Source of the DNA: Dicyema japonicum
Lineage: Eukaryota > Dicyemida > Rhombozoa > Dicyemidae
Direction: 5' to 3'
Assembly (NCBI GenBank): GCA_011109175.1
Contig: RDEW01000035.1
Span: forward strand, 263,564-327,563
DNA length: 64,000 nt
In this document: positions 3,373 to 45,652 of the stretch, in pieces
Position numbering within the stretch: the first letter of the stretch is position 1
Layout of the letters: the number at the start of each line of letters is the position of its first letter
The notes under the pieces: generated by a model
Databases searched by the model: none
Told to the model about the DNA's origin: nothing
Seen by the model: the letters and a program-made list of their open reading frames with translations, nothing else
Made by a program: the position numbers and the translations under genes

Positions 3373-3847
3373 ATGGTTTGGATTTGATATATTTATTTAG
3401 ATTTTCCTACTTTTTTCATCTCTCATTCTTTCAAATAATCCAATCGACTTGGAAATTTATTTTGGCAACAATGATGAACTCAACGGCTACAAGAAGGAAT
3501 CTTTTCCTGTTGATAATCAAATTATTGCAATTGAAAATGACAAAATATTTAACCCTGATGTTCTCAGACAATCAAAGGTGAAACAAGAATTCCACAAGGC
3601 CGTGTTATGGGTAATCTTGTTAAATCAAAGTTTAGTACGCAAAGAACAACTTTTACATAACATTTTTCATAGGGATCGGACATGTTCTAGTTCTAGTGGC
3701 CTCTTTAATTTCTTATGCTGCAAAATTCAGTAGATGGGTTGGTTTACGTTCGATATTTTAGCTATCAAGGAAAAACAAGACAGAAGACTGCGAAGAAATA
3801 AATGTATTGGGTTTGTTCAATTTTAGTTTATTGAGAAAGATATTTAA
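3373..3847 (+). CDS. Small membrane protein gene with four micro-introns
   Basis: Five exons (3373-3375, 3401-3610, 3636-3737, 3762-3803, 3827-3847) are separated by GT...AG introns of 25, 25, 24 and 23 nt, all phase 0. Spliced, they give an uninterrupted 125-residue protein. It starts MIFLLFSSLILSNN, a signal peptide or first membrane segment created only by removing intron 1, which lies directly after the ATG. A polar region of about 60 residues follows, then a hydrophobic segment at about residues 80-103 (FYITFFIGIGHVLVLVASLI), and a charged tail ending EEINFIEKDI. The segment FHKAVLWYAKNNFYI faintly recalls the third membrane region of BAP31-type ER proteins, but I would not assign that. 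An AATAAA-like site lies near 4000. It is the best candidate for a functional gene in the window, because four independent joins would all have to preserve frame by chance. Intron 4 could be retained, giving a different tail that ends at 3851. Confidence 0.6.
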
Positions 3848-4379
3848 TTAGTTCATGGTGTCACAGTTTTTGTTATGGGTTTTGCCTAATTTTTGTCTAA
3901 TCGTGTAGTATTAAGTAGCTAACCGATCCTAAAAGTGTTCTGATTTGCTACTAAGCTAATATTTAGATTTGCTTCCATTTTCAAATCGGACTTTTATTCA
4001 ATAAATGATGTTTGTGAATTTTTCTGAGAGACTCAACACCTATTTTATCTGAAATTATTTATTTAGAGGGTAGAAACATGATTCCGTTGTTTTAACTAAT
4101 ACTCTATCTATGGCTCCGCAAACAGAATGTAGACTTCTCGAACAGTTAAGAGCCTGAAAGTGTAATCCAAGTCAATTCTCTCCAAAAATTATTTTTGTTT
4201 AACTACAATCTCTGTTTACTTGCAAGTAAGAGAAGTAATCTTTAAGTAATAAGCAGTTGACATATTTGTCATCAATATTAATAAAATAATAAAGAAAGTG
4301 CTCATTGATGGAATAAATTAACTGAATTCAACTTTGTCTTAGAAAGTTCACTTATTATTCTATTAACATTAAATTGTGG

Positions 4380-4600
4380 AAACCCCTCCTGCGGAGTGGG
4401 GGTGAGCAAATGATCCTTTTTCGTTCCGGCCTGGCACTTCGCCACCTGCAAATATGGACGTCTTTTACCCTTTATGTTGATTCCGGATAGACTCTTTTTG
4501 TGGAAGTGGAAACTGGATACACTTAATTAGTTGTTTACTTTAACTTCTTTCTCGGTGTATCCGGGGTTATCATTTTATTTTTTATTAACATTAAATTATA
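4380..4600. repeat. SINE-B copy with inverted 5' half
   Basis: Positions 4380-4447 carry the SINE-B body in reverse orientation (ACCCCTCCTGCGGAGTGGGG, then CAAATGATCCTTTTTCG). Positions 4455-4580 carry its tail in forward orientation (TTACCCTTTATG, ACTTAATTAGTTGTTTACTT, TTCTTTCTCGGTGTATCCGG). In the 53-kb copy both halves lie in one orientation. The inversion with a near-contiguous breakpoint resembles twin-primed 5' inversion by a LINE machinery. Confidence 0.6.
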
Positions 4601-4765
4601 TTAGTTAGTTAGATAAGTGACCCCAGTCTCACGAACTTGTAGGAGACCAACGGCTATTAAGTAAGACGCATCGTAGACGTATGTCCCTCGGGAAAGAGGA
4701 TTCCGATTGATCTGTCGATAGAGGAACCGGCTTAGTGTCAAAATGCGACTGAAAAACGCTGGTAA

Positions 4766-5765
4766 CTTTGACGACAAAAATAACTTGTGGATCACCAGAT
4801 GATTTGCGCCCAATCACGTACATGTCTATATTATATAAATTACTCACTGTTAATTCCAATCTTACTGATTATTTGAAAACATTCGATCTCGTCTCTGACA
4901 ATCAGATGGGAGCGAAGAGGTGGTATCAAGGCGCCAAAGTGGTCTGTATCAACCAGTGTATAAACAATAAATATGAGAATAATTTTATTTGCAACTTGGA
5001 TCGACCTTAGGTAAGTATATGATTCAGTCGACCATGATTTTCTGTGTCATGTATTGGAATGTTCGGGACTTCCAAATTAAATAAGAAATTTCGTGAAGAG
5101 TTTAACTACCAAATGGAGAGTACTAAACTTAAACATGAAGAGGATTGGGACAGTTGTATCGAAACGTGGAATACTCCCCGAGACTATGTCTCCCCAACTT
5201 TTAGTTTCAGTCATGGATCCTTAAGCATAATTCTAAATAATAAATTTCCAAAATTGTCTATATCCCAAAGTTATTCATAATTGATGCCGCATACAACCAA
5301 TCACTTACTTTTTATTGATGATATAAAAATATTTACTGAGAAGGCAGATATAACGGTGAAGATAATAAATGAAATTGATGAGCATTTCAATGTGGTTGGG
5401 ATTAAGAAGAGTTTTGAGAAGACTGCCACTAATCTGGAATGTATGAAAGATGCAAAACCTCTGGATGGACATGAAGGCTATCAATACCTCGGATTGTTAG
5501 AGATCGTACAAGCAACATCATGAAGCATAATGTTTTGAGAACAATCGTGGAAAACGTAAAGAAGATTGTGAGATTGATGCATACTAAACTCAATACTACA
5601 AACCTATTTAAAGCGAACGTCTGGGTTGTGTCCTTTCTATTTGTCTTGACTGATTATCGCGTAAGGCTCTCCAGTCAAAGTCATACCTATTGTTCTAACT
5701 TGGGACGGAGTAGTTTCTAAGGCTCATGAATCTCACTTGAAAGCCATCGCAATAGATGCGCCGAC
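4766..5765 (+). mobile_element. R2-like non-LTR element, decayed, internally deleted
   Basis: The order of pieces is GSPDDLRPITYMSILYKLLT (reverse transcriptase motifs 1-2), DNQMGAKRWYQGAK, LLFIDDIKIFTEKA (the catalytic box as IDD), and GYQYLGLLE (thumb). After a short stretch at about 5600-5665 comes VKVIPIVLTWDGVVSKAH. The last peptide belongs to the extreme C-terminus, as in the separate copy at 23.9-24.5 kb, where it follows a KPDIFVYDK nuclease-type motif. The region between thumb and C-terminus is therefore deleted here. Several frameshifts and stops make it inactive. The R2-type assignment rests on PITYMS..YK, the IDDIK box and the PD-type C-terminal domain of the sister copy. Confidence 0.7.
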
Positions 5766-6720
5766 CAGAACATACATCTAATCCGTGGTCCTTTAAAAAG
5801 ACGTTGGAGAGCATGTTAGTGGAATATAAGTACGGGTGCACAATTTCGAAGAAGAGTTGGTTACTGGTGGAGTTGACAGTTTAGTCTTGAGTAAGGTGGA
5901 AACAGGTAGAATTCAGGTTACCTATTCCTCCTCTAAGAGGAGAGGGTTTCGAAGCGAGTAGTAATTTTCGATTTAATTGTGTTTTCCGTAAAAATAAATC
6001 TCCTTTTTGTCGAAACGATTATTGATCAGAAACCAAATACAGTCGACCTTCGCAAATTGGCCAATCTTTAAATTGGCCACAGTTTTTAAATTAATTTTTA
6101 ATACAAAAAATTTTATTAACACATCGAATGCTACTCGTAGGCTCGCCTACTTTTAATGAAAAAACTCAAATTAGTTTGTTAGTTAATGCACGTCCGCGTT
6201 GCTAGTAAACAGTGTTTATGGTTTCGCTTGTGCCATGTTTTTAACTATTCTTGCCGTTAGCCTTCTCCATCCCTTTCGTCTTGCTCGCCTCCTGATTTCG
6301 TCCAGATCGTCTGCACCCATCAAACGGCCTTCGATCACAGCATAATCATCTGCAAGTGTCCTGGGAAGACAAACTCTTGGACGTCCTCAGAGTGTAGAAA
6401 ATTCAGTATTCCCGAGAAATTCTTCCATGGGGCATTGCAGGGTGTGTCTTTAATGATCGCGACAATCTTCAGTGAGACGCCTTCATGCTTTAAATTAATA
6501 TCAAAGATAATAATCAAATAGCGACCCAGTTAAATTATTGACAATAAGGAAGTGGTCAATTTATCTTGCAATCTCTTCTTCCATACGAAACATTATTTTC
6601 TTTTCTTTTACAAGGTAGAACATTTTTCTTTCTCTTTTAACTCAGTGGTCCTAAACCAATAATAATGATAACTTTGATTAAAAATTAATTATACAAAACA
6701 AAATAAATTTAAATAAAATT
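5766..6720. other. Region without a recognised gene; LINE-tail-like repeat at 6595-6670
   Basis: No convincing coding sequence is visible; the minus frame at 6335-6517 is unassigned. The stretch TTCTCTTTTAACTCAGTGGTC followed by ccaataataat near 6625-6670 recurs near 8975-9010 and looks like the 3' end of a LINE with a short AAT-repeat tail. Confidence 0.35.
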
Positions 6721-6965
6721 GGAACAAAATACCACAAGGGTTATCTGAAGCAGTTGGTGGTAGATAGGAAGCTCCAGGCCTATCTACAGTCCACTGTGTT
6801 AAAGCGGATCCTAGAGAGCCTGACACTGGAGTATAGGAGGCAGAGCCCTGAGATGCCATATGGGCAGAGGGTTCAATTAGACAAGGAGCCCTAGGAATTG
6901 TTTCAGCAACCAGAATCGAACTTGCCTGAGGACTGGCGAACAGGCAGGCGAGGAAGGTTGTTGAT
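6721..6965 (+). pseudogene. Unassigned coding-like fragment upstream of BCAS2
   Basis: A frame with richer GC than its surroundings is open from 6721 to a single TAG at 6892 and then to about 6965. It reads KYHKGYLKQLVVDRKLQAYL, with later SPEMPYGQRVQLDKEP and LFQQPESNLPEDW. Charged and helical, it looks like real protein, but I do not recognise the family. It ends next to a GT-starting, AG-ending AT-rich segment (about 6957-7027) that precedes the BCAS2 reading frame. It may be an unrelated block placed next to BCAS2, or an N-terminal extension. Confidence 0.35.
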
Positions 6966-7027
6966 TATTAAATATATTCATTTTTTTATTGTTTGTTAAA
7001 TAAAGTGGGATTATATTTATATTATAG

Positions 7028-7560
7028 AACAAGTGGTTCTAGATGCTATACCCTATTATGAGCAGGGATATGACAATGTCCTCGTAAAAGAAGCTGTAGA
7101 CTAAATAATTATTTTGTAGGTATTAAATCTAATCGAGGAGGAAATGAAAACCTTTCCTCACACAAAAAACTACCTCGGAAAATTTCCCCCACTTGACTTC
7201 AGCTTATTTGAGGTTTGCCAAAAAGTCACGTGCGAGACTCAAATTCTAAAAAAAAGTGGAGAGGATCAAATCAGGTATTCCAATGGAAACCCTTTCCACA
7301 AAATGATACGATTTCCCGAAATCGGCTCAAAGCAGACTTGAGGACCCGTCCGTCTTGGAGGAATGCGTGAACAACGCAATGGCCCAAACCAACCATCAAA
7401 GACTGAGGTTAGGGATTTTTAATACTCGTAGAATTCAAAAGTTAATATTATGAGGAAAAATGCTCAGATTGAGGCTGGAAATCATATTAAAAGTTTGGAG
7501 AATCAGTTTGGCCTTTGGTGGTTTTTTGTTGGATGAATCTTGTCAGGAAGAATTATGATT
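7028..7560 (+). pseudogene. BCAS2: BCAS2/SPF27-like gene, decayed, two 24-nt introns retained
   Basis: BCAS2/SPF27 is a core subunit of the Prp19 (NineTeen) splicing complex. The frame reads EQVVLDAIPYYEQGYDNVLVKEA, then a 24-nt GT...AG segment (7096-7119), then VLNLIEEEMKTFPHTKNYLG. This matches the family pattern VVDALPYxDQGY..VREAxxxLVEEE..xPTKNYL without a gap only if those 24 nt are removed. Downstream, after an A-run frameshift near 7255, come RIKSGIPMETLSTK, a stop where the family has R, YDFPKSAQSRLEDP, and ECVNNAMAQTNHQRLR. A second 24-nt GT...AG segment (7408-7431) then joins to IQKLIL, again gap-free against HQAVRIENLEL. Later sequence is frameshifted and shortened. Stops and frameshifts show it is dead. 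Retained introns rule out a processed pseudogene from fully spliced mRNA. Confidence 0.8.
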
Positions 7561-9030
7561 TTGAATAGATAAATGGAATATGGACAGAATAATTAATTTT
7601 TTAATAAATTTCGGTTTTTTTAATTTTTATTGATTCCTCGATGTTGGAATATTTTTGCTTGTATGAGCGGTCTAGAGCCACTTTTATAGCAACCAATGGG
7701 ATTTTTGGGGAAAGGTCCCTGAGGGGAAATGCTAATGACTCTAAAAGACATATATGGGCGCCCAATAATCTCAGCTGGTCTCTTGATAGCAACCGGGCTT
7801 ATATTAGTGGGCTCTTAGTAACTAACTATCTCTTGCTATAAAGAAAACATGTGCACATTAGTTGCGCGGGATTTTTTATGAAAATTTGCTATTTAGTGTA
7901 ATTACATGATTACGTCGATTTCACATTGGGCATATTCTTTATTAACTTATGATCCTCTCGTTGGTTGTAGAGCTCCATTGATAATCTTCAGTGAGACGTC
8001 TTCACGCTCTTTTCGAGGATTAGATTTTGCGTAGAGCATCTTGGTTTTCTGCTTCATCTAGTTTTATTTTTGAATTCCTTAGAAAATATATTAACCCTGA
8101 CATATCTGAATGATGAATGGAAAAAAAATTTTATTTATTTATTCAAAACATCATAACTGAATACCATTTCAGAAGACAAATTGGTTCTATCATCGTCTCT
8201 CCACTTTAGAATCAACCAATTCTTCTCTTCCAACATTCACTGAAGCAAAAATGAAATCTTTATCAAGACCTTGACCCGTGCTTTACTCAACTACCGTACT
8301 TTCAAGAGTTCTGTTCAACATAACTGATTGGATGCGAGTCCCCGTTTTTTTGTCGATATATAGTTTATCCATGTAATTCTTAAATCATTTTGAGAATACT
8401 CCGTCCCAGTTCATAATCAATCTTTATTCAGTGGTTGTAGAGAAGAGAGAACTGTCTTGCAAGAGGTTCATACTCTTGACACTTTTCTTTTCACTCACAG
8501 CCTGTTTATGACGATTCCGTAATTAATTCTCCATGTTGTCATTTTTTCAATCTTGCAAACGAAAAAATCAAATATCGTCGTATTAATACGTATCTCAACA
8601 TATTTTGTGATATTTAATTCTGACAAGATGACAGCATTTATTATAAAATAAATTCATTAATATTTTTATTATTAAGAACATTCAATACTTCAATGATAAT
8701 TACCCTCTTCAATCCCAAGGTATGAGGTTCTTACCAATTTTTCTAAAGTCTGGGTCAGACGAGAATTGAACCAAGACATTGATGCATAAGATGCTTCATC
8801 ATTTCGAAACTTCAGTTCTTTTTGGATTCTTACCACCCATTGTCAATTCAACCAAAATAGACTAGATCATCAATGTACTTACCCGAAATATGAGAAGACT
8901 CCGATCCCGCTTCAAGATCCCCGCCTGATCATCCTCCCTCTTGTTAGTCTGGGATAGTTTAGTTAGAAGGTATGTTTTTTCTCTTTTAACCCAGTTGTCT
9001 TGCGGCAATAATAAATAAATAATCACTACA
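7561..9030. other. AT-rich region without a recognised gene
   Basis: Overlapping open frames at 7601-7841 on both strands are unassigned. GATAATCTTCAGTGAGACG at about 7979-7997 recurs, slightly changed, at about 6462-6480, so this is repeat-derived. Nothing else is supportable. Confidence 0.35.
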
Positions 9031-9135
9031 GTCTACATAATTGCATCAAGAGATCAAAAGCTGAGTATAGACAGACTTCTAATTGAGGCACACCTCCGAA
9101 GTGGGGCATTTCTATTTTTGGAGAAACCCTGTTTT
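9031..9135 (+). mobile_element. Possible Jockey-like RT scrap
   Basis: The plus strand reads VYIIASRDQKLSIDRL, echoing the DLIIASRDQYVH peptide at 1.3 kb. The downstream nucleotides (agacttctaattgaggcacacctccgaag... tggagaaac) recur in degenerate form at 12070-12140. It is too short for firm placement. Confidence 0.35.
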
Positions 9136-9271
9136 TGAGGGCTTATAAATTTTCTACAAAAAGATGACAAATCGATTAAATTTGACACCTCTTTTCAAGA
9201 CATTAATTTTTATTATATAAAATTAATTATGTGATTTTATTAAACAGATTTAAAAAATTAATATTTTAAAA

Positions 9272-9590
9272 GTCTCGTTGTGGCATAGTGGTTAGGTGTC
9301 GGGCTAAAAGTGACTTAGATTACGGGTTCGATTCTCGCTGCTGTTCACCTGGTGGAAGGTTCCACGCATCTACAATGCTAAAAAGGCTTGGACGAGTGAC
9401 TCCGTCATCAGTGGACTCTCACTGCGGAACTGAATAGTCAAAAAGGACCCACACACAAAAAAGAAAATAGAAGTGAGGATCATTACTTCGTTCTACGATT
9501 AGTTAAAATTAACTGTTATTTACTTAAATAAAGTGTGTCCTGCCTATGCGGAGCTAATACCACGGCTCCGTGAAAAAGGCTGTTATTATT
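9272..9590 (+). repeat. SINE-A copy 1 (tRNA-derived)
   Basis: The copy has a pol III A-box-like TGGCATAGTGGTTAGGTGTC at 9281-9300 and a B box GGGTTCGATTC at 9324-9334. A conserved body follows (CTGGTGGAAGGTTCCACGCATC ... CCGTCATCAGTGGA ... CACTGCGGAACT) and then a tail GCGGAGCTA...GTGAAAAAGGCTGTTATTATT. It matches 17564-17875 over its full length. The A and B boxes would drive internal transcription; the short TTA repeat tail suggests mobilisation by a LINE that recognises its 3' end. Confidence 0.85.
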
Positions 9591-10574
9591 AAGTCACGTT
9601 GTATTTCAAATTTTTTGTTGATTATAATGCCTATGAATCGTGAAACAAAATTATGATTACAGATTATCTCTCATAAAAGTAACCTTGTAAAGATCTGATT
9701 TTTTGTTTGTTCGTCCAGGACATATTTTTTGACTCTAGAAATCAACATGGTTATTTGCTTATCCAGTGAGGATAGTTCTCTTTGATGATCAATCTTCGAT
9801 CTCTTTAAGCGTCTCTTCTCTCACGAATGAGGTGGAGGATTTCACTATTAAAGCAAGGTTAGAGTCCCTGATGAAGCCTTTGAGGATAATTTCTTACTCA
9901 GCCTATAACATAGCAGAGTTGAAAAGGCCACGGCTTTTCTGAACTCGTGAATTTGTAAATTTGTGTGACTTATAACATCTTTACATGACTAAATGAAAAA
10001 ATCATGAAAAAAATAAACAGTCCCAATTTTAACGTAGAGTCTAGGTGGTCCAGATCAAGCAAAGAGCTCATGAACAATATTTAAGCCAGAGATGGATGAT
10101 TCTACAATGCAGACATGAAATTCAACTCTTTAAACCTTCTGGAGTAGCCGTTCTATAGAGGTAATCTCAGGTGGTATGTATTCTAGTATCTTGTTCATTT
10201 GAGGTTCGTATAAATAGCGAAGGCATAATGCCGTGTATATTGATAGTTCAGGTACAGTCTTTGTACGGAGATGTAATTTTCCAGAGAGATTTTTGGAGGT
10301 CAGTGAGGTTTATCTGATGCAGCGATCCGATTAATGGTAAATTAGGATTATTGGGTCTAGTATTGTTGGAGATATTGAATCTTTTGCATTTCAAGTTTAC
10401 CTAACAGTAAACTAAAGGTCATTTAAATTGATGTTACTTATGATATATTTACATTCCTAGAACTGTATTTTTAGATAAAAAAATATTAATTAATTCTTTA
10501 TTTTATTTAAAATATTAATTTCAATTTTATTTAAATAAAACAAATTGCTTCATAATTAGAACAATTGCAGTGAG
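9591..10574. other. No recognised gene; shared repeat and AT spacer
   Basis: TATCTCTCATAAAAGTAACC with the following TTGTAAAGATCT (9664-9696) recurs at 12146-12178, marking a dispersed repeat. A nearly pure A/T tract occupies about 10465-10545, just before the LAMP-like gene. Confidence 0.35.
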
Positions 10575-11418
10575 ATGTTCCAATTACTAGGTTTATAAAG
10601 TAAATTAAAAATAGGAAAATATACGTGTTTAGCAAGCAATAAATTATTGGGGAGGAATATTACTACTTTTGAAATGTTGTATAATAATGTAACTATGTGG
10701 GGTGCGACAAAGAACAACCACGTCGTAACGTTATTTAGTGGAACAATTGAAGTTGAATATAAATTGAAATACAGTAAATACATTAAATTAAATAAAAGAT
10801 GAAATATGAAAATTTAAATGACGCAATTTTTGATTTTTATTTACGTGAACATTTTGGTGCGCTTAAGTGGATGAAAAATGATATAAAATTCACATTACTA
10901 TTTTCCCGTATATCAAATTATATACATGTATGGGGATTAGAATTGAATTCTTTCATGGACTTATGTACACTACAATCCGAATTTCGACTAACGGCTATTA
11001 TAACTGCAGTGAACTAGTTATAACTATTCCTAATTATGGAACTATAAAAATAAAAGATATGAAAATGCAGCTATCAAAAACAGATAATAACACTAGGTTT
11101 ACTGGAAATGGTAACTTTATTAACCGACATTTAGCACTCGGATGTGATTTCAGAAAAAAAAAGAAAAAATATTTTAATATAATAATGACAAATACAACTC
11201 GAAGTTATACAACAACTCATCGTACTCTAAAAACAATAAAGTCTCATGCAATCAGTAATATTAATTTAAATTTAGAAAACAAATATATATTATCAATTTG
11301 TGTAATTGGTGTAATTATTGTTGCCATTGTTATCACTTACTTAATAAAATATAAAAGAAGAAGACGTTTTTTTCATTACAGATTGGGATTTTCAATTATT
11401 AATATTATTTTATATTAG
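10575..11418 (+). pseudogene. LAMP-like type I membrane protein gene, micro-introns, one unexplained frame break
   Basis: The pieces in order are MFQLLG, then a 24-nt intron (10591-10614), KYTCLASNKLLGRNITTF, NNHVVTLFSGTIE, NDIKFTLLFSRISNYIHVW and GLELN. A frame change near 10945-10955 is followed by TNGYYNCSELVITIP, IKIKDMKMQ and ALGCDF. A membrane segment (ILSICVIGVIIVAIVITYLI) and a basic YKRRRR tail close it. The YxCxSE...MQ...C layout is that of lysosome-associated membrane proteins. Removing the 24-nt GT...AG segment at 11111-11134 brings the Cys-Cys spacing to 37 residues, the usual LAMP range; a 21-nt segment at 11255-11275 is another candidate intron. N-glycosylation sequons are present. 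A stretch at 10752-10867 (116 nt, GT...AG) must be skipped to keep frame. Either it is a diverged real gene with one unresolved junction or a young pseudogene. The LAMP identity is moderate. Confidence 0.45.
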
Positions 11419-15460: not shown

Positions 15461-15717
15461 TCAGTAATGATGGGTGTTGTAACCAAACCCCACTTTGATC
15501 AAATAACCATATGGGATTTTGAGAATCTCTCCGTTTCCCCACCTTTAATTGCATTTCCAATATTACGGATTTAGGTTGGTTTTCGATTTTATATTTAATA
15601 TTATTTAATTTCCTAATAATTTATTTTTTTTAATATTTCGTAATTTTTAGTTGTATTAAATTTATTTTTTTTATTTAAATATTTAAATTTATTAATTTCT
15701 AGACAAACTTTCATGCA

Positions 15718-16588
15718 AAAACCAAGTGGACTCAATTCTTTCAAAGCTTCCATCTCGGAAACTGTCCAATGACTTGGTTGAATACATGGACGTGTGGCGA
15801 AGTGAAGGGCTTAGCGAGCCGCGTAACCCAGACCAACAATCGTCTTGGATGATCCATAGATGGAATGCTCTGGCATCCAACCTAGTCAGCCGGCTCTCTG
15901 GACATCGCCTGGATTGTTTCCAAAATTCGAGGGAGGCGGTTGATGGATCTTGGCTTGGGGTTTACCCATGTCAAGAAGTTGGTGGATTGTTGGATGATGA
16001 CTCACTTCGTACAGCTGTATGTCTACACCTCGGATTGCCTGTTTGCACCAAATCGAAGTGCAAATGTGGCTGTCTATCGGACGAACTGGGTCTCCACCTC
16101 CTCTCATGCCGGAGCGGAATTGGCAGATCTTCTCGACATTCGGCAATGAACGGCATCATTAAGAGGGCATTAGAATCGGCTGGATTCCGTTGCCGGATCG
16201 AACCGACTGGTCTATTTGACAACGGAAGACGCCCTGACGGCATGACCTCCTTTCCTTTTGAGCGAGGGCGAAACCTTGTATGGGATGTGACCTGTGTCTG
16301 CTCTTTCGCCCCAAGCAAAAAAAATTATTCACCGGGCAGACCTTCTTCTCAAGCAGAGGAAGTAAAAAATGCTAAATACTCGGATATCAGCGACAGGTAC
16401 ATTTTCGCACCTGTCGCGATTGAAACTTCGGGGAACTTTGGCCCTAAAACACTGAAGTTCCTGAACCATTTGGAAAACTACTAACTGACAAAACTGGTGA
16501 TCTTCGTGAGACGAGATGGCTCAAGGAGAGGCTCTCGTTGGCTGTTGTCCGTGGGAATAGCTTGTGCATCTCCCAACAGCTGAATTAA
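15718..16588 (+). mobile_element. Retroelement C-terminal zinc-finger/nuclease-like domain, near full length
   Basis: This is the best copy of the family. It is open from about 15726 to 16484, with one frameshift near 16480 before LAVVRGNSLCISQQLN. The order is SWLGVYPCQEVGGLLDD, then AVCLHLGLPVCTKSKCKCGC and LGLHLLSCRSGIGRSSRH (a Cys/His cluster, probably zinc-binding). RRPDGMTSFPFERGRNLVWDVTC (PD and a downstream D, as in restriction-like nucleases), PVAIETSGNFGP and DLRETRWLKERLS follow. In other animals such a segment lies at the C-terminus of reverse-transcriptase proteins. No reverse transcriptase is visible upstream, where a 100-bp A/T tract begins. At least nine fragments occur in this window. 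Confidence 0.7.
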
Positions 16589-19310: not shown

Positions 19311-21019
19311 TAGGGCAAGTTGTTTCTAGCACTTAAAAAAATTTTTTAGCGCTAAAAAATCACAAAATCTAGCAATTATAATTAAAAAAGTTAGCACTTA
19401 AAATGATAAAATCTAGCATTTAAAATTGTAAAATCTATAACTTAAAATAATAAAATAAAACATTTAAATTTTATTTATTGTAATATAATAAAAGTTAATG
19501 CTTGATATTGTCTGGATGGAAGTTCCTATCCTTTTTTAAAAATTTTTTAGCATTTTAATAGCTCTTTCAACAGATGCATAGGATGCCTGACAGCGTGCAA
19601 GAGAAAAATAATCTTGTTGGCTAATTTTTGGTTCAGTCATTTCAATAATAAGTTTAAATCCATTTTCCTCCATTCTTTTATTTATATAATTTTTGATATT
19701 TGCCTTGTCATTATCAAAATGTAGTCCTTGTATAATAGTAATCTTCCATCATTTGATTGCAAGGAATCACTTCGTCCATTCTCAGAACATGTCCGATAAG
19801 TCGCCAGCGTGAGGTAATTACTTCTCTGCTTATCGGTTTGCATTTACATAATTTGTAGAGAGTGTCTTTTTTGATAATCTGTGGCCATTTAATTCCCGCA
19901 ATTTTTCTCAATTGATTTCTATGAAATGTGTCTAGTCAGTCACGGTCCGTTTTTGATGTTCTCCATGTTCCCGAGTTGTATAATAGGACTGGTTGTATGA
20001 ACGTGCTATATAAGCGCATCCGAAGATTTAAGGAGATAAGTTTTCTGCGAGTCCAAATACTCCACATCTTTTCAGTGCACACGATACCAACATCTTTCTG
20101 CGAGCAATGACCTCAGCATCACCCAAAAACGAGCCGAGCCTTTTAGTAAACTTTCATTTTTCATCGAACCGCTGAATCGAAGTTAACTCCGTTTTTCTGA
20201 ATTGATCTTCAAAGACCACCTCGCCAGAACTGTTGTGGCTTTATCTATTACAGTTCTTAGTACCACCACATCCTCAGACACAAAATCGATGTCATCAGCA
20301 TACATTAATTTAACAAAATGATTATTTAAGTGACCTAATTCTTTCCTAACGTCCCTCAACGCAGCTTCCAAATAGATTGCAAGGAGAACTGGCGAAAGCG
20401 AGTCCCCTTGCAGAATACCAATGCCGGTCGTGAATTTTTCCGAATAGCCCTTCCCTACTTTCACTATGAGGCTCGTGTCAGCCAGCAAAAAACGCACAAT
20501 CATCAAACAGTCCTCATCAATTATGTCCTTGAGAACTTGCAATATTTATCTCTGCAGACACAGTCGAATGCTTTTGATTAGCCGACTCCCAGAGTATATA
20601 TTGATTTTCTGTACTTCTGACATATTGACGCAAGCTACCGATGACTCCATACTATATCAGCAGTTGATTTTCCTGGTTTGAATCCGCTTTGACTTTGTGA
20701 CAAGTATTGGTCAACTGAATTTGATATTCAATTCAATGTTGTAATCGACAATGTTTTTCGCAAAGTGGTCAAAAGTACGATCGGTTTGAAATTTTCGATT
20801 GGACCTGCAGGTTTCAGAATCCGTAAACACATTATTAACTGCAATTTAAATTAGCATTTAAACAAAAATTAGCATTTAAAATTAAAAATAGCACTTATAG
20901 CATTTATAATGTATGTTTTTTTTAACAAAATTAAAAAATAATTATTCCAAATTCAAATTTATATTTAAAAAAGTATAAAAAAAATAAAAATAGCATTTTA
21001 GCACTTAAATTGCCCCTCA
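19311..21019 (-). mobile_element. hAT element interrupted by a LINE
   Basis: The left end TAGGGCAAGTTG and right end AATTGCCCCTCA are imperfect inverted termini. Both are flanked by GTGATTAT (19303-19310 and 21020-21027), within a longer direct repeat CCCTCAGTGATTATT; this 8-mer fits the Ac-like hAT target pattern. Subterminal TAGCACTT/TAGCATTT motifs recur at both ends. On the minus strand at 19720-19530 the frame reads ENGFKLIIEMTEPKISQQDY and QASYASVERAIKMLKN, the hAT C-terminal dimerisation signature. The middle of the transposase is absent: the interior holds a LINE (19721-20825). Confidence 0.6.
19721..20825 (-). mobile_element. LINE reverse transcriptase nested in the hAT element
   Basis: The minus strand reads FLLADTSLIVKVGKGYSEKF, ILQGDSLSPVLLAIYLEAAL and FVKLMYADDIDFVSEDV (YADD at 20302-20291, intact). 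Then come PVLLYNSGTW, FHRNQLRKIAGIKWP and SRWRLIGHVLRMDEVIP. This is the RT palm and C-terminal region of the family also at 22.0-23.0 kb. Frame breaks near 20180 and 19920 and the absence of the GRPRTTLP end make it dead. Insertion inside the hAT gives a relative age: hAT first, LINE second. Confidence 0.75.
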
Positions 21020-22021: not shown

Positions 22022-23037
22022 TTAATGTTGTCCTTTCCTAGACGCTTCCACTGTCAGTATGGCCACCACCCTCCTAGCTGATACTTGGCTCACTGTAAGA
22101 GTCAGGGGGAGCCTGTCTCGCCGATTTGAGACGACTGTTGGCACTCCACAGGGAGACCCATTATCACCTATCATTTTTGTCATATACCTTGAAGCTGCTT
22201 TACGGGAGTCAAAACTGATAATGGGTGAAATGACAAACATTATTGCGTATGCTGACGACGTAGACTTTATTTCAAACGACAAAATATCGCTCACCGCTTG
22301 ATGGAAGAAGTGTTTAATTGCTAAAAGTAAATCCGGACAAGACTGAGGGAACTGAACACAAGAGGGAAGAAACAAGGAAGAAGGAGCACTGGCGCAAGTG
22401 CAAAAAGTTTGGCTTCCTCCTAGGAGACCGTGAAGAAATTACAAGGAAAACCCTAGCACAAACTGCCTTCTCCAGATTAAAGAACACCTGGCTCTACAAA
22501 AAGGGCCTTGATATTATAACAAAAACTCGATTATAAAACTCACTAGTGAAACCCATACTACTGTATAACGCTGGTACCTGGACCTGCTCAAGAAATGAAC
22601 TGAAGAAGCTTAATGGGTTTCATAGAGACCAACTACGGCATATGATGTTTGAAAGAAGTGATACGAGAATGTTATCTAATCATTTTTATAAGAGGACGAA
22701 GACCTCAGAAATTTCTAATGAGATTCTGGATACACGATAGAGGCTTTTTGGTCATATTCTGCGACTGGACCTAGATTCACCCGCGAACGTAGCCATGGAG
22801 GATTATATCATGTTGGAGGCCCCCTGTTTCCGTGGTCGCCCAAGGACGAAACTGTCAGTCGTTTTCGACGAGGACCTCAAAGAAATGGGACGGCATTTTG
22901 GAAGTGGAGAAGATCTTGACTGGTTACGCACTACGGCTTTGAATAGGAGAAATAGATGAAACTAACCAGTGTTTTGCTAACTCGTGTTGCATATGTTTTG
23001 TCAAGTCCTATGACATAGCGATAAGTGAAAATAATAA
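22022..23037 (+). mobile_element. LINE ORF2, reverse transcriptase to 3' end
   Basis: TTLLADTWLTVRVRGSLSRRF, TVGTPQGDPLSPIIFVIYLEA and IIAYADDVDFISND (YADD at 22248-22259, intact) are followed in other frames by FGFLLGDREEITRKTLAQ, VKPILLYNAGTWTCSRNE, FHRDQLRHMMF and RLFGHILRLDLDSPANVAM. It ends EAPCFRGRPRTKLSVVFDEDL. Four pieces in three frames, with stops at 22302, 22534 and 22738, show inactivation. The sequence ends gacatagcgataagtgaaaataataataa, like the gataagtgctaataataa ends at 44.6 and 48.1 kb: a short AAT-type microsatellite tail. The BCAS2 fragment starts directly after this tail. Confidence 0.8.
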
Positions 23038-23290
23038 TAAGTGGTTCTAGAAGGTCTACCGTATTATGAGCAGGGATATGACAATGTCTCGTAAAAGAAG
23101 CTGTAGACCAAATAATTATCTTGTAGGTATTAAATCTAATCGAGGAGGAATGAAAACCTTTCCTCACATAAAAACTACCTAAAAAAATTTTCCCGTTAGA
23201 CTTAAGCTTGTTCGAGGTATGCCAAAAATTCACGTGCCTAGACTAAAATTCTAAAAAACGAAATGAAGAGGATCAAATCAGGTATTTCAA
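23038..23290 (+). pseudogene. BCAS2: Second BCAS2/SPF27-like fragment, same 24-nt intron
   Basis: This fragment is homologous to 7035-7290. GTGGTTCTAGAAGGTCTACC begins within exon 1, directly after the LINE tail. The intron (23103-23126, GTAGACCA...TTGTAG, 24 nt) sits at the identical codon boundary, followed by GTATTAAATCTAATCGAGG. Here the A-run frameshift of copy 1 is absent: the frame reads ILKNEMKRIKSGI, closer to the family (IMRNEFERLAA). It has its own one-base deletion in exon 1 (GTCTCG versus GTCCTCG). Two copies with different lesions and a shared intron imply duplication from an unspliced source followed by independent decay. Confidence 0.75.
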
Positions 23291-32280: not shown

Positions 32281-32284
32281 AATA

Positions 32285-37012: not shown

Positions 37013-37016
37013 AGCA

Positions 37017-37240
37017 CTATCAAGTTCGTTGAAACACTTGGTCGACTAGATCAAGTGGATCAAGAATAACTTTGTTACTGTTATGTCGAGCCTCCGCGTC
37101 GAGAGCATAGTTCCAGCTTATCAAGCATTTGTTAGCAGACTGAGTCGCTGATTGAATGCTTCTGTTTTTGAAAGAAAGAATGATATCGTCTGCATAGGAA
37201 AGGATTATGCAGTTTTCATTACAGGTTTGTGGCATGTCGT
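37017..37240 (-). mobile_element. Jockey-like RT, isolated YADD segment
   Basis: NCIILSYADDIILSFKNRSI and CLISWNYALDAEARHNSNK: the catalytic box is intact. It lies downstream (minus strand) of the thumb of the adjacent element rather than upstream, so it is a separate fragment. Confidence 0.65.
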
Positions 37241-37249
37241 TTATTTTTA

Positions 37250-38672: not shown

Positions 38673-38680
38673 ATTTAGAT

Positions 38681-40704
38681 CAGGGGTTCTCAACCTGGGG
38701 TCGATTCGACCCTCAGGGGTCTAAAATCAATCCAGATCGATCGTAAGGGGGTCGAAAATAAATTTAATATATTTAATCTTTTTCATTTTAAATTAAGTTA
38801 GTTTATTTTTAAAGTGGTAAACCTTTGTTCTTTAAAATTTTTAAAATTACCATGCATGTTTTTGTTCGTGTATGAGTCGTCCTTCTACATTAAAAATTCG
38901 TCAATATAAAAATGAATATTTGGAATTTGGATTTATAAAATTTTTTTTGATAATAGACCATATTGCTTACTGTGTAACAAGTTATCAAATGATGCAATGA
39001 AACCGTCCAAATTGTTGGATCATCTTAGGAGTAAACATTCGGATAAAAAAGATAAACCATTAGAGTATTTTGAAGAATTAAAGGATTCTTTTCGTAAACA
39101 AAAAACGATTGACAGTTTTTACAAATAGTATTGAAAGAAACAAAAAATACTATTTTTTTCGCTTCAAATTGACGAAAGTCATACATGTGACAACCAATAA
39201 ATTCTAATGGGATATGTCAGGTTAATCTTATTAGAAGCTTACCTTTTAAGATATTTTGACGATCATGCTATTCCTACAGAAGCTTTATTATTCGTCAAAT
39301 ATTTGGAAACTGATATGACTGGATTTTCTATTTTTTCCGTAGTCAAATTATTTTTGGATGACAAGAAGATTCCATATGAAAATTTGGTTTCTTGTGCCAC
39401 AGATGGTGAATGTCTATGGTTGGAAAATATAAAGGATTTGCGCATATTTGACAAAAATATGTCCAAATGTGATTCATATACATTGCGTCCTACATATACA
39501 ACATTTGGTTTCAAAAGCTCTTTCGCCAATTCTACATGAAACGTTAAATATAGTTATTAAAACCATAAACAAAATTAAAGCAAACAGCAAGTATGACCGT
39601 CTTTTTAGAAAATTTTGCTATGAGGCTAAAGAAACATATGTCCGTCTTGTGCTTCACACTGAGGTTATAGTTTCCAATTTTATTTTATAGGTACGATGGT
39701 TATCAAAGGGAAATGCATTAGAACGATTTTCAATATTATTTGACACAATCGTAAATTTTCTTACTTCTGGGTGATAAAACTTTAGCAGATTTAATTGTAT
39801 CGAAAAAGAAAGAAATTGTTTATTTGACTTGGATTTTTGGAAAATTTAATGAAGTTTCATTAGAACTTCAGGGAAAGTATGTGACGTTAATAGATTGTAA
39901 AAGAATTATTCAAATATTTATCGAAAAAATTAAGTTATATAAATATAACTTGGAAAAAAGAAATTATTATAACATTCCCGAATTCCACTCAATTGGTCAA
40001 ACATTTGATAATGAAGATATTAACAACTTTTTGCAACATTTATTACGTGTAGAAAAAGATTTGATTCTTCGATTCCAAGATATTCTTGAATTTGAAATTT
40101 CATTTTAAATGTTTAATCTGTTTTTGTCAAAGCCAGAAGAACAAAAAGAAAATATTAAAGAGGAATTAATTATGTTAAAATTCAATCCAGAATTAAAACT
40201 ATTTTAGAATGATTCACAATCACCTGCTATTTTTTGGCAAAATATGAAAGTGAAGGAGAGTTATCCAAAATTGTGGACATAAATAGCACAATTGCTACTC
40301 TATTTTCCGACATCATACTGTGTTGAATGCGGATTTAGCATTCTACATCGAATTGTAAATAAAGAACAAAACAGATTGGAAGTGTCCATTAGAGGAGATA
40401 TTCGTTTAAAAATAACACAAATAGATCCAGATATCGAATCTTTGGTCAAAAAACATCAGTCACAGGGATCCCATTGGTATTTAATTTTTTTATTATAGAT
40501 TTATGCTAAGATACCAACTTAACATCGAGTATATACTTTTTTTGTTTGATTTGATTATTAACAATGAATTCATTTTAGATAGTTAACTAATTTTACTTAA
40601 AATTATCTGTTCAAAATAAAAAAGTTTTAAGGGGTCGATTAAATATTAGGGGGGTCGAAAAAAAAGTCATGGGGTCGACGAGTAAAAAAAGGTTGAGAAC
40701 CCTG
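38681..40704 (+). mobile_element. Buster-type hAT transposon, complete termini, 8-bp TSD
   Basis: Termini are CAGGGGTTCTCAACCT (left) and AGGTTGAGAACCCTG (right). The perfect target duplication ATTTAGAT lies at 38673-38680 and 40705-40712. Subterminal GGGGTCGA motifs repeat at both ends. The length is 2024 bp. The termini and the central TA of the duplication match hAT-Buster/Charlie-type elements related to ZBED5. The insertion lies in a Jockey-like LINE. Confidence 0.9.
38872..40498 (+). pseudogene. ZBED5/SCAND3-like hAT transposase, frameshifted
   Basis: Starting MSRPSTLKIRQYKNEYLEFG, it has a BED-type finger (CLLCNKLSNDAMKPSKLLDH, RSKH) and then LKDSFRKQKTIDSF. The first catalytic region is FSLQIDES, followed by MGYVRLILLEAYLL, KYLETDMTGFSIF, SCATDGE, IHCVLHIQHLVSKALSP, GKYVTLIDCKRIIQIFIEK and LLYFPTSYCVECGFSILHRI. 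It ends SRxDIRLKITQIDPDIESL. The C-terminal YCVECGFS...R block is the hAT dimerisation region. About six frameshifts or stops separate the pieces, so no active enzyme is made. High similarity to the 62.5-kb fragment suggests relatively recent activity of the family. Confidence 0.85.
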
Positions 40705-40712
40705 ATTTAGAT

Positions 40713-42185
40713 GGTTGATGTTGGCCATAAAACTGGTTTAGTTGACCCCCTCAAAATTATACTTTAACAGAAGAATTAGCAAATTTAGGCCAAAAAACAA
40801 CGAAGTGGAACTATAAATAAAGAAATAGATGTTTCTGTGCGATCCCGACAAATTTGAAATTCTGAGATATGTAGGCGAATGTTTGAAAATATAATTATTC
40901 CAACAGGTAAATCTGATGACGTGGACACCTCTGTAAGGTTATTATCAAAAAGCTCCGTACCGACTACCGGGAAGGGCTTCTATTACGTTTCTCCAGGTAC
41001 AGAAATAAGATGTAATATTTTTCTAAAATTCAAGGATTGACTCCGTAATTCGAAGATTTAAGGATAATTCTGGGGGTTTTGCATAATAATTTGCAGAAAC
41101 TCTTCACAACATCATGTTTGGGGACAAAATTATAACACACGTTCCCTCCACAGCTATCAGGTCATACCTCTTAATCATTAGACGATCTACACCGTTTCCT
41201 GATACTGTTTTCAGATCGGAACGACCCATATAGGGCCTTGCACTATAACCTTCCCGGATGAGATAGTACGACATTACTGAATTAGTAAGAATACGACTGA
41301 GGCGTGTGACACAAACGGACTTAGTTAACATAACGTTCAATGGTCTGTGAAAGTGCTTTAATAAAATACACTGATTCCTACGTCAGATTAGTCCCTGAAC
41401 TTATGTAACAAACGCTCACTTGATCAGCAATTCGGCTATTGGCTGGTAAATGAAGCATATAACTGTTTGTGTTTCTCTGATTAACCAAGGTGATGAGAAT
41501 TTATAATTAGAAGAGAAGCAATGTGAGTATTTGATCGCTTGAGGGGTTGAGAATTGTTCGTGTTAAAGGATGTCCAAACGAGAAAGAAAGACCAAGTCCT
41601 TAACCCACGTGGATATTTGAAGGAGGTACTTGTTAAGAATGAATCTCCATTGAGAAACAATGTCGACCACTAGCAAATTCTTCAAGGAATAATAGTCACG
41701 TGGATGATGAAGCTTATGGCTTATCACAGGAAGCATTTACGACTCGCTCCAGCAAATTGATGATTTTGTGAACTACCTACGAGACTGAGAGCTCTGAAAC
41801 TGTTATTTCTGCGAAACCGTACAAACCGATAGCGTGAAGCAAAGAATTCTGAAAAAGTTTTTGAAGCTGAGATCCGTGAAACTGGAGATTTTTGAAAATT
41901 GGAGAATCCTAGGGTCAAGTCTAAAAAAGACGAACTAACTGACGGATCTGTCACTTAAAGGAAGAAATCGATTGATACAATAAAAGGAGACTCAGGGGAG
42001 CTGAAAAGTCTAGAAAACGGAAAAAATTAGTAAATTTGTCAACTTAAACGAGCAGTGGATGATTCACTCACTGAGAAAGGGAATAAAGAGTGTTCACAGA
42101 AAAATAAAAAAATCCCCACGTTTATGTATCATTTACTGAACCTCCTAGAGGATGAGACTATCTATGGTATTTCTTATTAACTGTT
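40713..42185. other. Region without a recognised gene
   Basis: Minus frames 41340-41104 (78 codons) and 41954-41724 (76 codons) are coding-like but unassigned. Nothing else is supportable. Confidence 0.35.
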
Positions 42186-42189
42186 AACA

Positions 42190-42700
42190 CTCTTACGGAA
42201 ATATTTTCGTGAAGAGTGGCTTATGTTCAAAGCTGAACCACGTGACTACACGTTTGACACGACTCGACTCAACGCATTAGTGGTCTTTTGACCATACTTT
42301 CGTGAAGTAGTGGATTTTGGCTGAAGGCTTGACTAGAAATCACGGAATAACACGTAGTAAGTAGTGGCTTTTGGCTTAGAGCTTAACTTGAAATCACCCG
42401 ATAAACCGTGGAAATTATCGTCTTTGCTCAAATTTGATTGGAAATTCTTGGATCCACGTGGAAGCAGTTGTTTATGTCTCGAAGCTTCTGGACCGACTTG
42501 ACACTACGTTTGGACACTACTCGCTATTAACTCACACTTTAGTGGTCTCCCGGACCATATTTTCGTGAAGTAATGGTTTGTGTGTCAAGGCTTGACTGGA
42601 AATCATCTATAACAAGTGTGAAGTAGTGGCTTATTGCTCAACGCTTCATTTACCCGCGTTACTTCACTTTTAAACTCTACTGACTATTGATCAACTCCTT
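42190..42700 (+). repeat. Degenerate tandem array
   Basis: Units of about 50-60 bp resembling CGTGAAGTAGTGG..TTTTGGCT..AGCTTGACTTGAAATCAC occur near 42207, 42300, 42356, 42410, 42460, 42563 and 42621. A second level repeats ACGTTTG.ACACGACTCG...TTAGTGGTC...ACCATA.TTTCGTGAAG at about 42246 and 42507, roughly 265 bp apart. No coding potential is visible. Confidence 0.55.
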
Positions 42701-42949
42701 ACTGGAGTCTCCTGACTTACTCAAAACAACAAAATTCGTATCAAAGCGAAGTGACTTACAAACCGGTGTTCTTTATACGAGTTGAAAGGATCATATTCTG
42801 CAAAGGCTCAAAAGTCCCTTTCAGAATATCAGACTTTTGCCACATACAACACTTGAAGTTGTAGCTAGATGAAACCACATGAATTCTTTCATACTCAGTA
42901 TTCATTCTGAACGCATAGAGAGTTCCGTGAAGGTCTCCACTTTTGAGTA

Positions 42950-43860
42950 TGATGAAAGAACGCTTAGTAAATTATCTCAACTTGCTTTCTTCTCTTTTAT
43001 TGTTAACAAATTTGTGCAACTAGACAGAAACTTGTTCAGGAAATGCTTCTCATTGATGGATTTTGGGGAGTAACTCAGACCTTTTAGTCCGACAATATCA
43101 ACGGGATATGTTGATTTCACCTTCTCCGAGTCTTCCACATAAGTAATGTGGGAAATTGTATATATTTGGTCGATTTTGACAAAACTAGTAGTATTGGCCG
43201 TCTGTAAAGTTATCTCTGTATCCGTGAATTCCACAAATAGCATGTTCACGCTTTAAAACGCGGGAAATATCATACAAACTCATTTTCAAAAAGCCTCTTC
43301 GAACTTTGGATAGGAACAACATGACAAATTCAAATTAGCATCCCTCAACCAAAATTCCAGAGTGAAATCTCAGCTTAATAGTAAAAAATACAGCTTCTGT
43401 GGTCTTTTCCAACTTTATCAACCCTTAAAGACGTCTCTGCTCGCTTGAAGGTAAATATTCTTCAACAGGATCCCAATATCAGCCGAATGACGCCATCTTT
43501 CAAAACATCCGAGAAGTATGGAATGATGCAATACTGAGTAAAGGCAGCCCTGTCTGGCAATCTTGGAGATCAAAAAACGACTGAACTGCGTTTGGGACAA
43601 CAAAAATGAGTTTATACGTTTGATCAGAGTAAGAAGGATGCCAGTATCCAAATGGTCATTTTCAAATATCGAATTAAAGCACATGCATGTCAAATGGAGC
43701 ACAAATTCCATGCGGTCCTTCAAGCCGTAGTCAAATAAAGACAGAAATACAGAGCACGTGTCGTGAAGTTGATTGAAAGTCAAAATATCCTGGAAATTAG
43801 TAAGAATTCACTTCTGACCTCCCTACTGTCCTTTTTACGCGCCACGTTTAAAATGTGAAG
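42950..43860 (-). pseudogene. Unassigned multi-exon gene candidate
   Basis: Two consecutive minus-strand open blocks. Block 1 (43786-43418) reads ILTFNQLHDTCSVFLSLFDY, then GLKDRMEFVLHLTCMCFNSI and FLISKIARQGCLYSVLHHSI. Just upstream is a plausible 3' splice site (TTACTAATTTCCAG). A 26-nt GT...AG segment after VFK would join to AVFFTIKLRFHSGILVEGC. Block 2 (43249-42977) reads NMLFVEFTDTEITLQTANTT, SFVKIDQIYTISHITYVEDS and TYPVDIVGLKGLSYSPKS, ending in KEKK. Composition and length look like genuine protein, helical in block 1. I do not recognise the family, and the join between the blocks is not resolved. Confidence 0.35.
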
Positions 43861-43865
43861 CATTA

Positions 43866-44380
43866 TTGTACTTTGAAATCTTTCCTTTCAGAAAAAAAGA
43901 AACTTTAAACCACGGAACATTGCAGGAGCTGAATTATAATGTCGTTGGTCCGCTAACCTTTCTCTGGGTCTTTTTAGCCTCTTTTAGGGAAAATCCAGTA
44001 AAGAGCACTTTTATAACAATTTTACTAAATAATCACACAAGTCAAATTCTTCTTCATTCATTTGAAAGTGCTATTTAATCCGTGAAACAACATTTAATTG
44101 GCTGAAGCTTAGATAAATGGCCAATTTTTGCCCCAAATATAACAAAATCAACGATTCTACTCAGAGGCAGCTTATACTAAGTGGGCAGAATAAAGTCAAT
44201 GAGAGAAATAAAGTGTACAAGAAAAAAATTAGATATACATTTTCTTCTCAGTCCCCTCTTTTTCTCCCGGGCTGTTCTGTCCCTATAATTTCTTCACAAG
44301 GAGTATCCACTCGAGATCCGCCAATTTTGATTTCAACACTTTATGGCTAAACTTTCATCGTGATATCAACATTAGATACT
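43866..44380. other. Plus-strand open frames, unassigned
   Basis: Frames at 43866-44078 (NYNVVGPLTFLWVFLASFRE) and 44117-44350 are open but not recognised. The first has a hydrophobic stretch. Confidence 0.3.
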
Positions 44381-44399
44381 GATTTTTCCGTGAACCCGG

Positions 44400-44660
44400 G
44401 ATTTTAAGTGGCCTGCCAGGATCTAAATGCTGGAAGATCACTTCCTGTTAGAGTGAAAATACTTCTGTGGCCGACCAATGGTTAAACTCCCTATCACACT
44501 GAACAAAGACCTCCAAAGATTGAAGAAATGCCTCTGGACGAGTTGATATCAATTGCGTGTAACCGTGAAGGATGGAAGAGGATACATTATTTGTTGCACA
44601 TTCTTAGCTATAACCATTATGACAAGGCGATAAGTGCTTATAACAATAGTTCCCATCAGA
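44400..44660 (+). mobile_element. LINE 3' end (RWRLFGHILR family)
   Basis: Pieces read PTNG.TPYHTEQRPPKIE, EEMPLDELISIACNREGWKR and IHYLLHILSYNHYDKAISA. The end CATTATGACAAGGCGATAAG with TGC..TAACAATAG is shared with 48.04-48.09 kb. Only the last ~80 codons of ORF2 and the 3' tail remain. Confidence 0.6.
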
Positions 44661-45092
44661 GATTGTGAGTTATAGGATAGTCAGAAGTCTGAGGGATCAT
44701 CAATCTGGTAATAAACCAATTTGTTTCGAATGAGCATTAAAACGTAGTCTTGGAATGATTCATGAAACGAAAAATATGGATGTCTTTCTATATTAGAGAA
44801 ATCCCAAAAATATGACTAATCGAATATGTCACATATCATTACTAATTATGCTAATTAAAATGCCAATGCCTTTCAACATTAGATAAATCCCAAAAAATAT
44901 GGGTTAATGACTTTCTATAGTGTTTCCCTCCTAGAGAGGAGATCTCCTTCGACCTCAGCTTTCCGGACAATGCACTTTGGATCAGTCGGCATACAAAAAT
45001 ATTACTCCTTTCGACACTTTCTATGACTTTTGAGAGGGAGAAATTTTATATTAATATAATAATAATAAATTTTATAAATTAATTTTAATTAA

Positions 45093-45652
45093 AAAATTTT
45101 AAATAAATCTGAATTAAAAATAGCTTGCCTTTGGATTGACAGAATGAGCATGCAACAGTTAGTGAAAAAGTTCGGATTGCTCAATTCCTCACGTGACAGC
45201 CGTGAGTATTTGCTAAAACATCCACAACTCGTCTCGTTTGATGGTGTCTTGACCATCATCATTTGGTGTGTGGATATGATTCATGCCAAAGTAGGATATT
45301 TGATTTCTTTAGAAATTTTCCTTGGCAGATCGTGTGATTCACCAAGCCATGTTTATCGTCTTCATCCACCATATGGATGATCAGGAAGGGCAAGATCCCC
45401 TATCAAAAATTAACACATTTTTCTTGAAGTAGTAAAAGATTTGAATTTAGATATAACAACGAGAGTAAGGATCCAAGATTTTTGGATTTTAAAAGTTCAT
45501 TTAATGAGCAAGTGGAGGATTATAAAGCGAGGATCAGATCGGCAGATCAGTTCCGATCATTCTTTTTCACTCTTCTTCATGAATTACTTGACTATTTTAT
45601 AATTTTGGTTTTTGTTAGTAAGTGTGCCTATTTCTTGTGGTCGACATTGTAG
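45093..45652 (+). pseudogene. CDC37: CDC37-like Hsp90 co-chaperone fragment with two 22-nt introns
   Basis: CDC37 loads protein kinases onto Hsp90. The frame reads LVKKFGLLNSSRDSREYLLK, HPQLVSFDGVLTIIIWCVD, MIHAK, then a 22-nt GT...AG segment (45291-45312) joining to KFSLADRVIHQAMFIVFIHH. It continues DQEGQDPLSKINTFFLK and, across a second 22-nt segment (45429-45450, phase 2), YNNESKDPRFLDFKSSFNEQ and VEDYKARIR. This follows the family pattern KxFGxLRRWDDSQRYLxxHPxLV..IWCIDLxxxxKxALxxQVAHQAIVMQF..DPRxCFRxFF..FxxELExFKxRxR, gap-free across intron 1. The spliced frame is open from 45093 to a TAG at 45650-45652. Homology is lost after KARIR, and the N-terminal clamp and extreme C-terminus are absent. 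An A/T tract precedes it. A truncated genomic copy is likelier than a complete gene. Confidence 0.75.

Follow-up and report, generated by a model that had tools for sequence, protein, structure and literature searches.

Introns of dicyemids are tiny. In published descriptions, their length is given as 26.2 ± 1.9 nucleotides (nt) among 16 introns (PMC2222250), as a mean of 24.93 nt with a median of 25 and a standard deviation (SD) of 2.51 among 41 introns (PMC2483917), and as a median of 27 nt, against a longer median of 57 in orthonectids (PMC6543705); the set of 41 is also described as having the weakest known 5' sites (0.5 bits), 69.9% A/T and no branch signature (PMC2483917). For Dicyema japonicum, a 67.5-Mb assembly (estimated genome size 65 Mb, 36.7% GC, i.e., guanine plus cytosine) carries gene models with a mean intron of 38.2 nt (PMC6736024). 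Here we analyzed a stretch of 64,000 nt of D. japonicum DNA (the window; C121:263564-327563 of a 64.67-Mb assembly in 191 contigs; about 35% GC), for which a reading of the sequence alone had claimed spliceosomal introns of 21-28 nt and had given a dicyemid average of about 26 nt, a figure that agrees with the three published ones. Introns of about 20-30 nt are supported by protein alignment in 10 genes of the window and the wider genome, as well as by exon spacing in profile searches, and the claimed range is about right. Judged from sequence comparison, these GT...AG segments in conserved genes are very probably ordinary U2-type spliceosomal introns of a dicyemid animal, near the smallest size that a spliceosome can use. 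Such introns are already known as a kind; what is added here are cases of 20 and 21 nt, PRP8 introns with 96% A/T, a branch-like signal outside PRP8, and canonical small nuclear RNAs (snRNAs).

The published introns of Dicyema acuticephalum, D. japonicum and Dicyema sp. resemble those described below in being GT...AG segments of about 25 nt with about 70% A/T and very weak 5' sites, and many introns per gene and PAX genes are likewise common to both. The present introns differ in their mean (23.6 nt vs. 24.9 and 26.2 nt), in including 20- and 21-nt cases, and in a branch-like signal outside PRP8, whereas none is reported in PMC2483917; the partly covered literature on dicyemid introns contained no statement on introns of 20-21 nt. 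Among more distant systems, the 15-16-nt introns of Stentor coeruleus likewise combine tiny size with conserved snRNA recognition sites, a conserved Prp8 and a branch A 5 nt before the last base; however, Stentor is a ciliate, its introns have a fixed length and a strict GTA start, and its branch A lies at position 10 or 11 rather than at the position of about 13-19 inferred here (PMC9505925). The introns of the Bigelowiella nucleomorph (18-21 nt) and of Paramecium (20-35 nt) share the size class and the weak consensus, but belong to non-animals and have donors largely restricted to GT(A) (PMC2222250, PMC2483917). Human ultrashort introns of 43-65 nt also represent animal U2-type splicing at its lower size limit, yet are about twice as long as those found here (PMC8363638).

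The homology-supported set comprises 61 introns from PRP8, SF1, PKC-iota-like, MARK-like, SNRK-like, MVD, SEC11, C1GALT1, CDC37, and BCAS2. Spliced alignment was done with a custom splice-aware dynamic programme in which GT and AG ends were compulsory and introns had to be at least 12 nt long, without an upper limit; the GT...AG ends of 61/61 introns are thus partly a matter of construction. The strongest case is PRP8 (C87:1217673-1224400, loci L049 and L050), which contains 30 introns of 20-26 nt: 28 from spliced alignment to human PRP8 and two located exactly at the borders of aligned segments. Two of the 28 were corrected by hand, namely a 14-nt call, now read as an intron of 23 nt next to a stretch that the human protein has and this one lacks, and a 38-nt call, now a 24-nt intron plus a one-base homopolymer deletion. 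The spliced protein is conserved: it shares 1645 of 1920 aligned residues with human PRP8, an identity of 86% (390/500, 424/487, and 831/933 in the individual segments), and removal of the introns leaves open stretches of 3,654 and 2,349 nt. The PRP8 frame is broken near position 3985 of the L049/L050 sequence, where a single base is missing from a T run; this is likely an assembly error or an allele. The PRP8 introns are 96% A/T inside, compared with 67% in PRP8 exons and 70% in the introns of the nine other genes together (52%-89% by gene in a 63-intron subset). A shared origin of the PRP8 introns in a single element was considered and set aside: their mean pairwise match is 13.29 vs. 12.92 (SD 0.07) in shuffled sequences, an excess that A/T repeats may explain.

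SF1, the three kinases, MVD, SEC11, and C1GALT1 contribute introns of 21-30 nt. The PKC-iota-like kinase reaches 358.6 bits after seven removals; the kinase introns were initially called by eye, and the junctions in the PKC-iota-, MARK-, and SNRK-like genes are gap-free against solved structures, except for one residue adjoining the first PKC-iota junction. The MVD protein is 44-49% identical to its best 120 of 6,322 matches, which come mostly from vertebrates; the rest are from some insects and echinoderms and one chytrid or are unnamed records, and no dicyemid is among the 120. The genome also has four PAX loci, which point to an animal, as PAX genes are not known from outside animals. Evidence of another kind comes from the spacing of neighboring exons in profile matches to kinases, the U2AF large subunit, and PAX, for which no sequence was used: among 38 profile-table rows picked by eye as neighbors, 16 of the 21 pairs imply introns of 22-26 nt, and the remaining five give 13, 38, 47, 1, and -7.

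Several calls were kept out of the 61: an SF1 intron whose length is ambiguous (31 or 40 nt); a call of 103 nt in the CDC37 copy at locus L030; the 25- and 23-nt BCAS2 introns present in single copies or in the composite only, together with the aligner's other calls of 19-170 nt in decayed BCAS2 copies; and, as poor alignments, an 887-nt call at the SEC11 start and C1GALT1 calls of 28, 598, 613, 117, and 151 nt. The first C1GALT1 junction was re-read by eye as 22 nt, and one SF1 intron is counted at 23 nt, with an end 3 nt earlier being equally possible. An intron-aware gene finder was of no use, as its codon model, for which 2,513 codons served as training data, was too weak; both of its GT-AG gene calls were PRP8.

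Two loci of the window offer usable homology, CDC37 and BCAS2. For the CDC37-like gene copy, the two 22-nt introns of the sequence-only reading were borne out (Table 1). When both segments are taken out, the Hsp90-binding region of CDC37 emerges and matches human CDC37 across both junctions (PDB search, expect value (E) 3.4e-12), and the spliced protein scores 28.8 bits against Pfam CDC37_M (cut-off 25). The same profile run over the genome gave no match, probably because each exon was scored singly. A paralogue on C34, 69-92% identical depending on the piece, has exon coordinates from which hand calculation puts the length of an intron at the second-intron site at about 22 nt, and the L030 copy on C94 is decayed, its alignment ending after its first exon. 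The CDC37-like family comprises the window copy (45093-45643) and copies on C82, C34, C127, C68, C94, C130, C13, and C119. Several of them start at or near one common residue, and the window and L030 copies have upstream sequence in common. The CDC37 search also lists an open frame of 9,228 codons at C13:973320-973412, possibly a masked stretch.

BCAS2 (SPF27) is represented by at least five copies, of which the window and C43 hold two each and C170 a single one; all five that were aligned are decayed, without one intact copy among them. The gene was duplicated several times together with its introns and flanks (7020-7570 and 23040-23290 in the window). A composite spliced protein drawn from several copies is gap-free over 175 residues against human SPF27/BCAS2 (E 7.5e-44), and on this basis the three proposed 24-nt BCAS2 segments stand as introns, with two reservations: every aligned copy is decayed, and spliced alignment recovered the segment at 7408 in no copies but L001 and L002. 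Moreover, the segments at 7096 and 23103 are copies of one single intron, and in the decayed sequences spurious calls of other lengths accompany the recovered introns. A further 25-nt intron of the second window copy had been overlooked (Table 1). Splice sites have been lost in several copies; examples are GG for GT and AA for AG in L001 and L002, and TG in place of AG in L003. The sequence-only reading had named functional BCAS2 or CDC37 paralogues that carry extra residues at these sites as evidence against introns; L003 is indeed open through a 24-nt segment as a result of its AG-to-TG change but has stops elsewhere, and no intact BCAS2 or CDC37 paralogue was found among the copies aligned.

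The lengths of the 61 introns have a mean of 23.59 nt (SD 1.68, median 23, range 20-30) and cluster at 22-25 nt, with one intron each of 20 and 21 nt, 13 of 22, 17 each of 23 and 24, seven of 25, two of 26, and one each of 27, 29, and 30 nt. They are spread evenly over the three classes of length modulo 3 (20/20/21). This distribution bears on the least improbable of the alternatives. An explanation proposed for short introns of Paramecium is nonsense-mediated decay (NMD), and dicyemid introns might likewise stay short, or be tolerated, mainly through the destruction of transcripts that retain them. In agreement with this, retention would cause a frame shift or an in-frame stop for 58 of 63 introns (a set that includes the four candidates at 3376-3826 and leaves out BCAS2). 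However, lengths divisible by three are not scarce (20/61), and the introns of such length contain in-frame stops in 14 of 19 cases vs. 12.1 in shuffled sequences (p 0.24). We tested for a length rule shaped by NMD and found it unsupported; we regard this explanation as a poor bet.

Less probable still is that the segments are no introns at all but insertions that keep the frame, or GT...AG strings that arose by chance where the sequence has decayed, the frames seeming restorable merely through the free removal of short pieces. Such restoration is easy: when up to four GT..AG pieces of 20-28 nt may be removed, 11.6% of 1,920 random 600-nt genome windows reach a frame of at least 125 amino acids (aa). 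In addition, the aligned BCAS2 copies are pseudogenes, of which one reads through its 24-nt segment. For the genome at large, chance is contradicted by the identity that PRP8 retains after 30 removals and by the score of the PKC-iota-like kinase after seven, as well as by the clustering of lengths at 22-25 nt with their even spread modulo 3. Locally it may apply to 3376-3826, where removal of four candidates leaves a 125-aa open frame with a hydrophobic segment: the proposed GT..AG pieces of 25, 25, 24, and 23 nt exist there, but their status as introns is unproven because 11.6% of random windows do as well, which rules out the open frame as proof, and the 125-aa product matches no Pfam family; these four were kept out of the 61. 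It does hold for 11111-11134, which needs no intron since the surrounding frame stays open. All seven segments that the sequence-only reading had located singly have the GT...AG ends and the lengths that it gave them. The segment at 10591-10614 joins a stretch, GKYTCLASN, which we take to be an Ig-like (immunoglobulin-like) motif; the pieces tried from this locus and from 13.8-14.9 kb gave no Pfam match.

Table 1. Candidate and supported short introns in the window (positions counted from the first nucleotide of the window)
Feature	Position	Strand	Support
Putative 25-nt intron 1 of a 125-aa predicted membrane protein	3376..3400	+	Open frame only
Putative 25-nt intron 2 of the same protein	3611..3635	+	Open frame only
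Putative 24-nt intron 3 of the same protein	3738..3761	+	Open frame only
Putative 23-nt intron 4 of the same protein	3804..3826	+	Open frame only
24-nt intron of BCAS2 pseudogene copy	7096..7119	+	Spliced alignment with human BCAS2 in the first window copy; composite gap-free
24-nt intron of the same BCAS2 copy	7408..7431	+	Recovered by spliced alignment only in L001 and L002; missed in the window copy
Possible 24-nt intron	10591..10614	+	Joins Ig-like GKYTCLASN stretch (by eye); no Pfam match
GT...AG segment, intron not required	11111..11134	+	Within uninterrupted 178-aa frame 10882-11418
Second window copy of the 24-nt BCAS2 intron at 7096	23103..23126	+	Near-identical sequence; copy too decayed to align
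25-nt BCAS2 intron, GTATGCC...CCTAG	23217..23241	+	Read directly; removal in composite gap-free vs. human BCAS2; outside the 61
22-nt intron 1 of CDC37-like copy, phase 0	45291..45312	+	Frame-shifting; gap-free vs. human CDC37 at junction; Pfam CDC37_M
22-nt intron 2 of CDC37-like copy, phase 2	45429..45450	+	Frame-shifting; spliced protein matches human CDC37; Pfam CDC37_M

Elsewhere in the window, open frames at 15696-16484, 20183-20545, 22026-22301, and 53582-55108 resemble by eye pieces of non-LTR (lacking long terminal repeats) retrotransposon proteins, and at each of four places (58972-59434, 59688-59882, 61193-61602, and 63601-63790) a unit of between 95 and 232 nt stands twice in tandem, with matches of 90-95%. 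An Rfam scan of the whole window gave no match.

The 5' sites of the 61 introns carry little consensus. None of the donors begins with GTAAG, position +3 is A in 30 and T in 29 of the 61, position +5 is G in seven, and the mean match to the 9-mer complementary to U1 is 4.7 of 9. Outside PRP8, where the introns are 69.6% A/T, positions +3 to +6 hold 0.99 bits of information; the higher value for PRP8 (3.16 bits) is due to its 96% A/T composition. The pattern yTnAy, placed such that its A precedes the last base by 5-9 nt, is found in 14 of 31 introns outside PRP8, compared with 5.8 in shuffles (p 0.0006), and this branch-like A has a median position of 16.5 from the 5' end; over all 61 introns, A at -7 occurs 34 times vs. 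21.5 expected (p 0.0006). Outside PRP8, G is common at +4 to +11 (63/248) and rare at -11 to -4 (24/248). A simple profile separates 26 real non-PRP8 introns from 68 exonic GT..AG decoys with a leave-one-out area under the curve of 0.93, a somewhat optimistic value since the same decoys trained the decoy model. The 3' site is the first AG ending at least 20 nt from the donor in 60 of 61 introns. Introns of the U12 type have an RTATCC donor consensus or AT-AC ends. Donors with GTATCC number 0/61, and AT-AC introns lie outside the reach of an alignment that demands GT-AG.

The machinery that would act on these sites appears standard. U1 snRNA is found at 11 places, with the 5' sequence ACTTACCTG present at 10 of the 11 loci; U2 snRNA is found at 25 places, with GTAGTA in 6/6 loci read, and U6 snRNA at 10 places, with ACAGAGA in 6/6 loci read. 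SF1 is present and conserved, and on C114, exons of the U2AF large subunit follow one another in order, the best of them scoring 82.6 bits. A U12 snRNA candidate at C68:163471-163599 scores 85.4 bits (cut-off 53), and the genome may thus have retained a minor spliceosome. Removal of the introns by a non-spliceosomal route or by a much altered spliceosome with changed snRNAs would be in keeping with the absence of GTAAG donors and the frequent T at +3, but is scarcely credible given the canonical U1, U2, and U6 recognition sequences, the conserved PRP8 and SF1, and the ordered U2AF exons.

With a standard spliceosome acting on near-minimal U2-type introns, the reaction could be pictured as follows. 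In the first step, the 5' end would be joined to a branch A some 13-19 nt downstream, and in the second, the next AG, 5-9 nt past the branch A, would serve as the 3' site; nearly all of the intron would then be engaged in contacts with U6, U2, and the 3' site. Because pairing with U1 is weak, recognition may depend not on a strong 5' consensus but on the spacing of GT, branch A, and AG, on a G-poor, T-rich 3' half, and on the exonic G that precedes the donor; the data favor spacing and the G-poor, T-rich 3' half over U1 pairing alone as the basis of donor choice. A bolder version, to which we give some room while thinking it rather unlikely, is that the spliceosome reads the intron as a ruler, on which the branch A stands 13-19 nt after the GT and the AG a further 5-9 nt along, that pairing with U1 is nearly dispensable although U1 itself is unchanged, and that the 30 near-minimal, almost pure A/T introns of PRP8 could make its output report on the removal of the shortest introns, thus forming an autoregulatory loop.

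Several observations weigh against the picture of near-minimal introns served by an ordinary spliceosome, or narrow it. All 61 introns come from conserved genes, about half of them from PRP8 alone, and at least four junctions lie in poorly aligned stretches (one in PRP8, the last in SF1, the second in MVD, and one in C1GALT1). The aligner called long introns (117-887 nt) at the ends of SEC11 and C1GALT1, which were discarded as poor end alignments; therefore, the set of 61 is compatible with rare long introns, and the genome may contain some. In a 64-intron set, the donors match U1 better than do GTs within PRP8 exons, which reach 3.8 of 9 (p 7e-8 for the donors of PRP8 and 4e-4 for the others), thus pairing with U1 is not irrelevant. 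In PRP8 introns the branch-like yTnAy shows no excess (9/30 vs. 9.7 expected) and internal GTs are not depleted. Internal AGs are no more than mildly depleted (2 vs. 6.3 expected in PRP8, 21 vs. 25.3 elsewhere), so that the first-AG rule follows in part from the shortness of the introns. Finally, the best U1 match scores 69.0 bits, just below the Rfam cut-off of 69.5, and no U2AF exon passes the whole-protein cut-off of 310.3, the exons having been scored singly.

The D. japonicum genome is fairly contiguous (64.7 Mb in 191 contigs) and therefore allows direct tests of the lower limit of intron size in animals. It also lets one test how a standard spliceosome finds introns almost without a donor consensus, and PRP8, a single conserved gene that has 30 introns of 20-26 nt, provides a ready-made test set.

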